This document shows positions 17,109-40,202 of a DNA stretch of 64,000 nt, one piece after another (positions within the stretch are counted from its first letter, which is position 1; the number at the start of each line of letters is the position of its first letter). The notes under the pieces are model-generated. The model ran no database searches. It was not told the origin of the DNA and saw nothing but the letters and a program-made list of their open reading frames with translations. The stretch lies in assembly GCA_950097245.1 (NCBI GenBank), contig CATNCS010000001.1, positions 51,238 through 115,237 on the forward strand. Direction: 5' to 3'. Made by a program: the position numbers and the translations under genes. The stretch is from an uncultured Oscillospiraceae bacterium (GTDB lineage: Bacteria; Bacillota; Clostridia; Oscillospirales; Oscillospiraceae).

Positions 17109-17194
17109 AGTCGTTTCCTCCAATAAGTGAAGATACCGCATTACATCCGGACGGGTGTAGTGCGGTCTTAGAGGAGACGACGGCAAGATCTCTC

Positions 17195-17298
17195 TTCCAC
17201 TTCCTACGCCGGCATTACCCGGATCAGGTTCAAGGGACCGGAGACAGCTTTGTTTGTCTCTGCATCTCAGCCGGGAACTGTGCTCCCAGCGCCCCTGT
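17195..17298 (-). promoter_or_regulatory. TPP (THI-box) riboswitch
   Basis: Minus strand GGGGCGCTGGGAGCACAGTTCCCGGCTGAGATGCAGAGAC...CCGGTCCCTTGAACCTGATCCGGGTAATGCCGGCGTAGGAAGTGG: conserved CTGAGA and CCCTTGAACCTGATC.GGGTAATGCCGGCGTAGG blocks. Confidence 0.95.
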
Positions 17299-17416
17299 GT
17301 TCGATTGTACTGCGGTTCTTTTTTATTTTAGAAGCTTTCCGGGCGTTTGTCAACCCTCTCCTTGACAATCCTCCGCCCCGCCGATATACTGTATCCCACA
17401 AAGGGGGTGGGACGCC

Positions 17417-35585: not shown

Positions 35586-36380
35586 TCAGTCTCCCGCCCG
35601 CTGGCAGGCGACGACTACAAAGCGTCCGTTTTTGGTGTGGTAGCTGCAGGTGGACAGAACCAGGATCCGGTCCCCGTAGGCTGGCTCCACGCCGGTGTCG
35701 TAGAGGGCAAGCTTCCCAATCTGGTCGAAGTACTCCTGAAAGGCCTCCTGGTCGGGCAGCTCGGTGTACTGGTAGTACTGAAAGGTACCCGTCTCATTCA
35801 CCCGGTAAATTTTGCTGAAAAAGGCGGTGACCACCTCATACTCCCGGACCTCGTCCAGGGTGTCGAAGCGGATGACGGGGTGGGCCTGAGCGTACTCCAG
35901 GTTCTGATACTCGTCCAGGTCGCCGAACATGGAGCCGTCCTTCATGTGGTGGCCGTAGATGATGGCGTAGTCCCCGGCCGGGTCACACTTTCCGTCCAGA
36001 AACAGGGTGCCGCTGATGGCCCGCTTCTTTTCAAAGCTCCGGCGCAGGTAGTACTCCGGGTCCTCGGGGGTGTGCATGACGGGGTAGTCGATATTCGTAT
36101 CCTCAATCCACAGCCAGCCCGCCAGGTCGCTGTTCTCCTGAGCCAGGGCGGCGTACTCCGCCAGAATCAGCTCCTCCTCCGTGGGGCCCTGGGGCAGCTG
36201 CGCCCCCTCGGGCAGGGAGATGTGGATGGCGTCCCGCACCTGCTGAACCTGCCGGGCCAGCGCCTGATTGTCCGCCTTCTCCCGGTTGGAACGGAGCAGG
36301 TCCCGGGCCAGCAGTCCGGCGGAAACTGCAAACACCGCCACAAACACCAGCGTCGCCAGACGGCGCACGTTCTTTTTCAT
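35586..36380 (-). CDS. srtB: Class B sortase
   Basis: IEDTNIDYPVMHTPEDPEYYLRRSFEKKRAISGTLFLDGKCDPAGDYAIIYGHHMKDGSMFGDL...ILVLSTCSYHTKNGRFVVVACQ (catalytic TCSYH). Confidence 0.92.
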   Translation of the reverse strand: MKKNVRRLATLVFVAVFAVSAGLLARDLLRSNREKADNQALARQVQQVRDAIHISLPEGAQLPQGPTEEELILAEYAALAQENSDLAGWLWIEDTNIDYPVMHTPEDPEYYLRRSFEKKRAISGTLFLDGKCDPAGDYAIIYGHHMKDGSMFGDLDEYQNLEYAQAHPVIRFDTLDEVREYEVVTAFFSKIYRVNETGTFQYYQYTELPDQEAFQEYFDQIGKLALYDTGVEPAYGDRILVLSTCSYHTKNGRFVVVACQRAGD

Positions 36381-39400: not shown

Positions 39401-39546
39401 GGGGCACTCACCTCGGGCTTATCACTGCCGTCAATGGCCGCCTGCAGGTCGTCAAACGAAGCCGCAAAGACGTAGGAGCAGGTCATAGACGCGACCACAG
39501 TTAAGGCAAGTAATCGTGCCAAACATTTTTTCAATGTTTTTCTCAT
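36448..39546 (-). CDS. Large cell-wall-anchored adhesin: signal peptide, acidic low-complexity region, beta-helix GGTISGN repeats, pilin-like (FctA/SpaA-type) domain, SPQTG sorting signal
   Basis: MRKTLKKCLARLLALTVVASMTCSYVFA...; repeated F(T/N)M.GGTISGNT..NGGGVYV; FKFVLTDKAGNPIYTGTNNADGDIVIKFPEGYFLDKETGDHEFYITEVNDG; C-term PLAESPQTGDGSHTALWAALSGFSLLGMLAMVLGKKRDEL. Confidence 0.9.
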   Translation of the reverse strand: MRKTLKKCLARLLALTVVASMTCSYVFAASFDDLQAAIDGSDKPEVSAPADSLPADKTPEPDPEPDGGSDDSSAPSEPSTPGESDQSGSTDGADSGDSSNTDNSGETAGTPTEGSETSDGTQGTEGGEVNNDNTTSEDGNGEGTEPTEPEDTEPPADTEPPVEPSETPADTESNEGNGENPAGGQPAEGDQPEVPEVKTPEEPKKPENGSVVGNIDGNTQYGYGWTQDEDGKWTYSIVTWDVKGDNDVTDRYIQLRDDVTHSSSDKAGSITIGNTPSGGKIILDLFGHSVTGNGKDNVVKVDSGNLTLNDSKGGGTITGGTTGVYLQNGSSFTMEGGTISGNTTGSNGGGVYVGKDSTFNMKDGEISGNTVKDYMYKDKHYEADGGGVLVEGGTFNMSGGTITNNSAIGGNGGGVAVKDYYDSGKFAGHSTFNMTGGTISNNHADTGNPNSQNEPIGQGGGVYVGHGAGFNLNGGTISGNTADEGGGIFTEGADSPRYYDGKVQDWSIKLPNGTFNMSDGTVLGNTANIGEGGGIYIQGKGTITAGHILNNVTLTERDLGGGGIYIENGGELKLYNAIITDNKADGLGGGLAACVHGKTVVYVKNGAAIWENTANGEAASKGYNGNGTKIDGNDLWKDNQGFKDGAQDIFTASDAKQTDWSTNEYGKPGVVIGPQMLGGGDANWVGWKFIYDEKGNLETVNGKVACVQVTKDEDGNLVYADRLLGVTAEPDAETIEAAKAAARAATGGVWIEGNYSKTHGGGIANNGLLIIGEDVFEYDDPDDPEGTKTLTKDENAPAATPDRDLKDGEFKFVLTDKAGNPIYTGTNNADGDIVIKFPEGYFLDKETGDHEFYITEVNDGAENIIYDGTKYKVVVTVSKDDIEDKFEIGKGEPITGTRVTAKMVIYKVTYDKNGDEVLSELGDDKMTFNNKYTSTPVRDEPGGDDDDDDDDEPDNPPPENPPEDPTVDVPEPEVPLANLPEEPEIEIPEEEVPLAESPQTGDGSHTALWAALSGFSLLGMLAMVLGKKRDEL

Positions 39547-39579
39547 ATTTATCTTCCTTTCTTTGCAAATTGTCGGATG

Positions 39580-39672
39580 CAAAGTATCCGGCGGCCGGGC
39601 TGGCATTGTGCTGAGCACGTTAGCCCCCATAGCTTTGCGTCCCGTCATTTCTGGCGGTTTGCTAATCATAAT
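39580..39672 (-). promoter_or_regulatory. GEMM/cyclic-di-GMP-I-type riboswitch aptamer A (gene-proximal)
   Basis: Minus strand ATTAGCAAACCGCCAGAAATGACGGGACGCAAAGCTATGGGGGCTAACGTGCTC...: GCAAACC, GAAA-capped P2, GGACGCAAAGC, CTAA blocks. Confidence 0.75.
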
Positions 39673-39759
39673 CAGTAGCCGGGCGGTCATGGCCGGTGCG
39701 GCTTTAGACCCCATAGCTTTGCGTCGCGAGGTTTCCCCCGGTTTGCCTTTATGATTAGC
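39661..39759 (-). promoter_or_regulatory. GEMM/cyclic-di-GMP-I-type riboswitch aptamer B
   Basis: Minus strand GCTAATCATAAAGGCAAACCGGGGGAAACCTCGCGACGCAAAGCTATGGGGTCTAAAGCCGCACCGGCCATGACCGCCCGGCTACTGATTATGATTAGC; perfect 11-bp P1 GCTAATCATAA/TTATGATTAGC. Confidence 0.85.
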
Positions 39760-39799
39760 AGCCAGGCTAACATAGCTGTCCGGAGCACGGCCTGCTATG

Positions 39800-39915
39800 G
39801 CCTGCTCCTCCTCCGCGAACATGACCCGCACATGGGCCATCAGAGGTTCGCCTTAGTCCCTATAGCTTTGCGTCCCAGAATTTCTTCTGGTTTGCCAAAG
39901 TGTCATAGTGTTCAG
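39800..39915 (-). promoter_or_regulatory. GEMM/cyclic-di-GMP-I-type riboswitch aptamer C (promoter-proximal)
   Basis: Minus strand CACTTTGGCAAACCAGAAGAAATTCTGGGACGCAAAGCTATAGGGACTAAGGCGAAC...GTTCGC. Confidence 0.8.
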
Positions 39916-39973
39916 CGCGGTTATCCTGCCCGTGCCTGATTTCCGCTGTCCCTGACATGCGAAGACAGCGGAG

Positions 39974-40006
39974 CTACCGCCACGGCGGCGTCGCCTGAGC
40001 ATCCAT
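39974..40006 (-). CDS. Possible 10-codon leader ORF in the adhesin 5' leader
   Basis: AAGGAGG + 8 nt + ATGGATGCTCAGGCGACGCCGCCGTGGCGGTAG (MDAQATPPWR*). Strong SD but very short. Confidence 0.3.
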   Translation of the reverse strand: MDAQATPPWR

Positions 40007-40173
40007 TGGCCCCACCTCCTTACCTGGCCAGTCCGCGGGCCCAAAAGCCTCGCGGACGCATCCCCTCCCCCGTCTCCGGGGGTACGACGCTTCCCCTCAT
40101 ATCCAAGGATATGAGTAATGCCTCCATCCAGTGAGGAAACTCCTATTCCGCAGCCGATATTGAGGCACGTTAA

Positions 40174-40202
40174 ATTATACCACTACTCGCCGAAGAATTC
40201 AA
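40174..40202 (-). promoter_or_regulatory. Candidate promoter for the riboswitch leader/adhesin
   Basis: Minus strand TTGAAT-17-TATAAT, about 620 nt upstream of the adhesin ATG. Confidence 0.6.

Follow-up and report, generated by a model that had tools for sequence, protein, structure and literature searches.

The leader of an adhesin gene at positions 39546-40170 of the window (the whole stretch of 64,000 nucleotides analysed here, from an uncultured Oscillospiraceae bacterium) contains three c-di-GMP-I aptamers on the minus strand, followed by a single shared platform without a terminator. We consider it probable that this leader is a c-di-GMP translational switch in which three aptamers serve one expression platform and the last of them competes with an anti-aptamer strand. 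Tandem and triple c-di-GMP-I arrays were already known; what is unusual here is the chained layout, with short linkers and one common platform.

A search of the window's genome with RF01051 (Infernal cmsearch, gathering score 35 bits) recovered three minus-strand matches: copy 1 at 49.5 bits (39754-39899), copy 2, the best-scoring, at 69.2 bits (39671-39757), and copy 3 at 62.6 bits (39587-39673). The E-values ranged from 1e-8 to 1.6e-13 in this one-genome search, and the model ends of neighbouring copies overlap by 3-4 nt. The initial annotation had proposed three tandem GEMM c-di-GMP-I aptamers on this strand and had named the RF01051 search as a check, with sub-threshold scores counting against the proposal; no copy scored below the threshold, and the proposal is confirmed. 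Only two of the three aptamers are reported by cmscan, probably as a result of its overlap removal. With the copy boundaries given from position 20 to C92 in Vc2 numbering (Table 1), C92, A47, and the GNRA tetraloop are present by sequence in all three copies, and a C precedes CGGA in 92/92 of the arrays collected from relatives (see below). The window copies share GCAAAC, the GNRA tetraloop hairpin, GACGCAAAG, P3, and C92 with the c-di-GMP-I family (GEMM-I, RF01051) but differ from its ordinary members in that copy 3 has A20, copies 1 and 3 are without a clear P1 of their own, and the copies are chained at 10-11 nt.

Table 1 Features of the array leader and adjoining genes (window positions).
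Feature	Position	Strand	Remark
Predicted promoter TTGAAT-17-TATAAT, TG ahead of -10	40174-40202	minus	10/12 consensus bases
Structured 5' leader part, no Rfam family	39900-40167	minus	folding z-score -3.5
Small ORF MDAQATPPWR (then stop), SD AGGAGGTGG	39974-40006	minus	recurrent SD-ATG Pro-Pro ORF upstream of arrays
Hairpin CCGCTGTC...GACAGCGG, between small ORF and aptamer 1	39943-39971	minus	read from sequence
c-di-GMP-I aptamer copy 1, G20 to C92, long P3 insertion	39758-39896	minus	49.5 bits
Linker 1, 5' strand of copy 2 P1, 10 nt	39748-39757	minus	11/11 Watson-Crick with linker 2
c-di-GMP-I aptamer copy 2, G20 to C92, P1 from both linkers	39675-39747	minus	69.2 bits
Linker 2, 3' strand of copy 2 P1, 11 nt	39664-39674	minus	alternative self hairpin
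c-di-GMP-I aptamer copy 3, A20 to C92, joined to expression platform	39591-39663	minus	62.6 bits
Platform hairpin H1 CGGAU-ACUUUGC-AUCCG, starts at position 93	39574-39590	minus	invariant in 19 genus arrays
Anti-aptamer strand CUUUGCAUCC, within H1	39575-39584	minus	anti-core duplex -13.7 kcal/mol
GCAAAG adjoining Shine-Dalgarno; complement of H1 loop CUUUGC, copy of aptamer core	39561-39566	minus	
Shine-Dalgarno AAAGGAAG of adhesin gene	39553-39560	minus	kept in alignment A1
Putatively regulated gene, secreted surface protein, 1032 aa	36448-39546	minus	FctA isopeptide domain, SPQTG (LPXTG_double)
Class B sortase adjoining adhesin gene	35586-36380	minus	PF04203 3.8e-12

Chained arrays of this kind recur among relatives. 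RF01051 matches were found in 21 of 64 genomes of the same genus, and in at least nine of these besides the window's own the model ends of the copies overlap or nearly touch, giving arrays of 2, 3, or 4. An order-wide sample of 150 genomes had RF01051 matches in 44, with overlapping copies in the window's own genome only. All 19 genus arrays, which were picked by RF01051 independently of any platform pattern, end in CGGA-N-CUUUGC-R-UCCG...GCAAAGARAGG. Scanning 85,488 GTDB genomes for the platform pattern returned at least 120 stretches, and the platform lies in more than 120 contigs from Oscillospiraceae, Lachnospiraceae, and other Clostridia; several genomes hold 3-6 arrays (e.g., Flintibacter muris, Acetatifactor muris, Oscillibacter sp. 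1-3, and Pseudoflavonifractor sp. 60 among the matches listed). Many of the records come from mouse or vole gut, an impression from record titles rather than a count. The 127 distinct arrays comprise 98 in which 2-4 regular copies can be parsed and 29 in which only one can. Most of the latter show, beside the parsed copy, another that is degenerate or written differently; by eye, about 5 of the 127 look truly single.

The common platform opens with the hairpin H1, which begins at the nucleotide following C92 of the last copy, in the place usually taken by the start of P1; its fifth pair is U-A in 54 arrays, U.G in 21, and C-G in 8, with 9 non-pairs. The CUUUGC-R-UCC strand is complementary to the aptamer core GGAC-GCAAAG, perfectly for R=G and with one A.C mismatch in R=A platforms, the window's included, and the duplex energy is -13.7 kcal/mol in the window, compared with -15.6 in an R=G platform (CUUUGCGUCC). 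The control for this anti-core complement, which is partly contaminated by upstream array copies and is indicative only, reached at most 7 nt. In the Vienna folding model, which takes no account of pseudoknots or ligand, the free ensemble of the window has the platform strand paired to the core of copy 3 (P=0.99) and not to copies 1 or 2 (P ~0), while blocking all aptamers shifts it to the GCAAAG on the Shine-Dalgarno side at P=0.95 (0.93 and 0.94, respectively, with longer flanks). A model in which the anti-aptamer strand polls every aptamer, so that all would have to be bound, is not supported for the window, as its folding exchanges copy 3 only; the array-wide mean folding values are weakly compatible with it. 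CUUUGC and GCAAAG show no covariation in the collection, where both are invariant and the collection pattern itself fixed them.

We infer that an exchange of the core strand between the last aptamer and the flank of the Shine-Dalgarno sequence is the most economical model for these arrays. When ligand is absent, the platform strand CUUUGCRUCC would pair with the core of the last aptamer (GGACGCAAAG). Filling of this aptamer by c-di-GMP would free the strand to fold into H1 beneath the bound ligand, and the H1 loop could then pair with the GCAAAG beside the Shine-Dalgarno, either as a pseudoknot or as a hairpin. The upstream copies would probably act via the linkers they share, which can pair alternatively with C92 of one copy and A20-G21 of the next, and ligand binding in one copy would thereby affect the adjoining one. 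As for direction, Shine-Dalgarno accessibility in the window fell from 0.92 to 0.59 once the aptamers were blocked in the nested folding model, and over 71 arrays the same blocking left 12 more open and 17 more closed, with no consistent trend. The exchange model predicts that the ligand lowers translation (OFF), a direction that we favour only slightly and regard as near even, because the arrays show no common Shine-Dalgarno trend and the related Bc2 switch is ON.

A similar exchange is suggested elsewhere in the genus. In a congener (G006; L067 1661-1800 and L068 450-590), a terminator lies behind an ordinary c-di-GMP-I aptamer. In the L067 terminator, AAGCUUUGCGUC-UA-GACGCAAAGCUU-U6, one arm is the anti-core strand and the other repeats the aptamer core, which would be an independent use of the same core-strand exchange. 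Ordinary single c-di-GMP-I switches of the order (e.g., L070, L074, and L076) seem to pair their P3 end, GCUGCAAA, with a downstream UUUGCAGC beside a U run.

The linkers of the window form the P1 of copy 2, with 11/11 pairs in the window and 10-11/11 in four relatives, and the helix covaries (C-G in the window, U-A in L096 and L157, and U.G in L063). It is present in the free minimum-energy fold, and at full length it occupies C92 of copy 1 plus A20, G21, and C22 of copy 3. Alternatively, linker 2 can form a hairpin of its own (CUGAU-UAUG-AUUAG) that extends into both adjoining copies, taking in C92 of copy 2 at one end and A20-G21 of copy 3 at the other. Hairpins of this type in long-linker arrays join A20 to U93 of the copy before it, and the 94:19 pair varies between A-U, G.U, and G-C. 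The self-pairing of long, window-type linkers averages 4.59 bp, compared with 2.01 in shuffles (maximum 2.82 of 2000). Because these pairings are alternatives, the state of each copy would be tied to that of its neighbour, and a coupling of the copies through their linkers, be it cooperative or antagonistic, is suggested by the sequences. We retained the copy 2 P1 as a feature of the long-linker subtype only. A shared P1 was rejected as a universal rule: most arrays have linkers of 1-6 nt, too short for a P1, ordinary single aptamers of the order likewise have little of it, and Cd1 of C. difficile binds in its absence. A UUGC/GCAA hairpin was also discarded as a selected trait of short linkers, because YUGC and GCAAA are the consensus ends of the aptamer and any two abutting copies can form it; the permutation of short linkers gave no signal for this hairpin (4.01 vs. 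3.90).

A stronger version of our reading is that 2-4 aptamers coupled by linkers (C92 to the next G21) and sharing one anti-aptamer strand achieve true cooperativity or multi-input logic on a single translational platform spread through the lineage, which we put forward tentatively and at somewhat less than an even chance. The published model of tandem c-di-GMP-I riboswitches is one of independent switching (PMC9481103, PMC4759541), and by analogy with Bc3-5 of B. thuringiensis the triple would then be pseudo-cooperative and just sharpen the response. We find this very unlikely in the present arrays, as it requires a platform per aptamer: linkers of only 10-11 nt in the window, and mostly 1-11 nt among the 127 arrays, leave no room for a switch between copies, and there is no terminator between the window copies. 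It could also be that the last aptamer alone switches and that the upstream copies are left over from slippage or recombination, or serve as non-sensing structural spacers. This would fit the exchange of copy 3 alone with the platform in the folding model, the labile copy number (e.g., the L065 array, where copies 1 and 3 are fused and copy 2 is gone), and the ~5 single-aptamer versions that have the same platform. However, the upstream copies retain the full consensus, including G20 in nearly all first copies, and score like ordinary aptamers, only ~5 of the 127 arrays look single, and the linker pairings that join neighbours are kept through compensatory change; we therefore judge last-only switching to be rather unlikely. 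Another reading holds that a tight copy 2, via its 11-bp P1, blocks its neighbours and produces a threshold or band-pass response. In its favour, this P1 consists exactly of both linkers, with 10-11/11 pairs in five relatives and one C-G/U-A exchange, and appears in the free fold; yet the helix may end at 9 bp, which would leave C92 and G21 free, and is limited to the long-linker subtype, so that such antagonism is in our view unlikely.

With regard to ligand identity, the ligand is read by the junction base that precedes P2 and by the C that follows P3, and these provide the basis for the numbering (PMC6274999). The specificity base is position 20, immediately 5' of GCAAACC, where copies 1 and 2 carry G but copy 3 carries A; the initial annotation had sought the determinant after GACGCAAAGC, on the wrong side of this motif (PMC6274999). 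First copies have G20 in 96/98 arrays and A20 in 2/98, whereas last copies have A in 42, G in 41, C in 14, and U in 1 (n=98; G vs. non-G, Fisher p=9e-20), and ordinary aptamers of the same order have G20 in 29/31. This asymmetry is real, and it may reflect a change in which ligand is preferred, weaker binding, or a role in structure. A20 marks cGAMP-type aptamers, so the base in copy 3 and its frequency among last copies would suit a device that reads c-di-GMP with its upstream G20 copies and 3',3'-cGAMP with its terminal A20 copy. The likeness of copy 3 to the 3',3'-cGAMP riboswitch (GEMM-Ib) is confined to A20, however, and the remainder of its core is c-di-GMP-I-like. Hypr enzymes, which make cGAMP, are expected to carry Ser in GHxxGD. 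No Hypr-type GGDEF protein (Ser for Asp) was found among the four of the window's genome, which is ~96% complete (the search for cGAMP synthesis covered GGDEF enzymes only). All four have kept Asp in GHxxGD and resemble ordinary c-di-GMP synthases, which makes c-di-GMP the likely ligand. Two-ligand sensing also has to contend with the 14 last copies that have C20, with the pairing to U93 that explains A20 in long-linker arrays, and with C. difficile Cd1, where A or C at position 20 does not abolish c-di-GMP binding and is no hard filter (PMC9262584). Taken together, we regard the two-ligand device as quite improbable. Of the multi-input sensing that the initial annotation had suggested, A20 of copy 3 speaks in favour and the c-di-GMP-type Asp of all four GGDEF proteins against.

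Upstream of the array, the promoter in Table 1 is the sole promoter-like site of the region (shuffles 0.7 +/- 0.7) and predicts a transcript start near 40167. It would be followed by ~270 nt of structured leader (z-score computed over 39900-40172). No Rfam family other than c-di-GMP-I reached threshold in the leader region, and its 5' part was unmatched even at lax thresholds; weak matches to mir-240 and Mu-gpT-DE in the region were dismissed as chance. The small ORF, which has a strong Shine-Dalgarno, has counterparts elsewhere, as SD-ATG ORFs that carry Pro-Pro between codons 4 and 11 occur in 49/87 arrays compared with 4.9% of 3105 other SD-ATG ORFs at the same loci. The Pro-Pro is followed by W, G, or V, the wobble bases of the Pro codons vary, and the ORFs mostly lie 73-95 nt upstream of aptamer 1; a frame-shifted control gave 26/98 because the region is C-rich. 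It is possible that these ORFs encode a stalling leader peptide. Hairpins of the form CCCGCNG..CNGCGGG, similar to the one between the small ORF and aptamer 1, precede other arrays. No intrinsic terminator was found in the window array or before the adhesin gene, and the only good one near the leader (40325-40294) ends the upstream gene.

The putatively regulated gene starts with an ATG at 39546, and its product, a pilin-like adhesin, has a signal peptide and an isopeptide domain of the FctA (Spy0128-like) type; its anchor is of the doubled-LPXTG type and ends in SPQTG. The adjacent class B sortase matches TIGR03064 at 9.5e-45 and 152.7 bits, slightly below the 153.75 cut-off. The sortase-linked adhesin expected downstream of the aptamers is thus borne out. 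The single common platform, the linkers shared between copies, and the small ORF went unremarked in the initial annotation. A second array in the same genome (contig C65; L034 1721-1950) has two copies at 68.1 and 49.4 bits and precedes another surface protein with an APETG signal and, as read from the sequence, a sortase-like ORF downstream. The window also holds a TPP riboswitch (17184-17306, minus strand, 64 bits).

Triple arrays as such are not new: Bc3-5 of B. thuringiensis was published in 2016 (PMC4759541), and a survey counted 347 doublets and 12 triplets of c-di-GMP-I, the commonest same-ligand tandems in it, and described them as independent switches with their own platforms (PMC9481103). 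Bc3-5 of strain CT-43 likewise places three c-di-GMP-I aptamers in one 5'-UTR, but there every copy comes with a terminator of its own and is regarded as independent (PMC4759541), in contrast to the one terminal, terminator-less platform that serves all copies in the window. The tandem glycine riboswitch also joins several same-ligand aptamers to one platform ('dual aptamer, one expression platform'; PMC9481103), although with two aptamers and another ligand and fold, compared with up to four aptamers here. Similarly, Bc2 precedes the gene of a cell-wall adhesin, the collagen adhesin cap, but is a single aptamer with a transcription terminator and acts as an ON switch (PMC4933901), whereas the window has three aptamers and no terminator. 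Published surveys would have missed chained arrays because pairs with overlapping coordinates were dropped as false positives (PMC9481103), and text searches of the open-access literature returned no account of single-platform c-di-GMP-I chains. If our reading is correct, a chain of 2-4 aptamers on a single platform would represent a different route to steep or multi-input control. Such arrays occur several per genome in some gut Firmicutes, before sortase-anchored surface proteins, and c-di-GMP would then govern the attachment of common gut commensals.

Variation among the arrays includes shrinkage, as seen when L065 is compared with L063 (G025 and G004): copies 1 and 3 are fused and copy 2 is lost, and as a result of the fusion the last copy has G instead of A at position 20. 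In a further subtype (L049, L060, L057, L090, L101, and L105), the second copy reads GUAAACC...GACACAAAG or GGCAACCC..., and in L049 and L060 the pair C22:G45 has become U22:A45, a compensatory change within P2.
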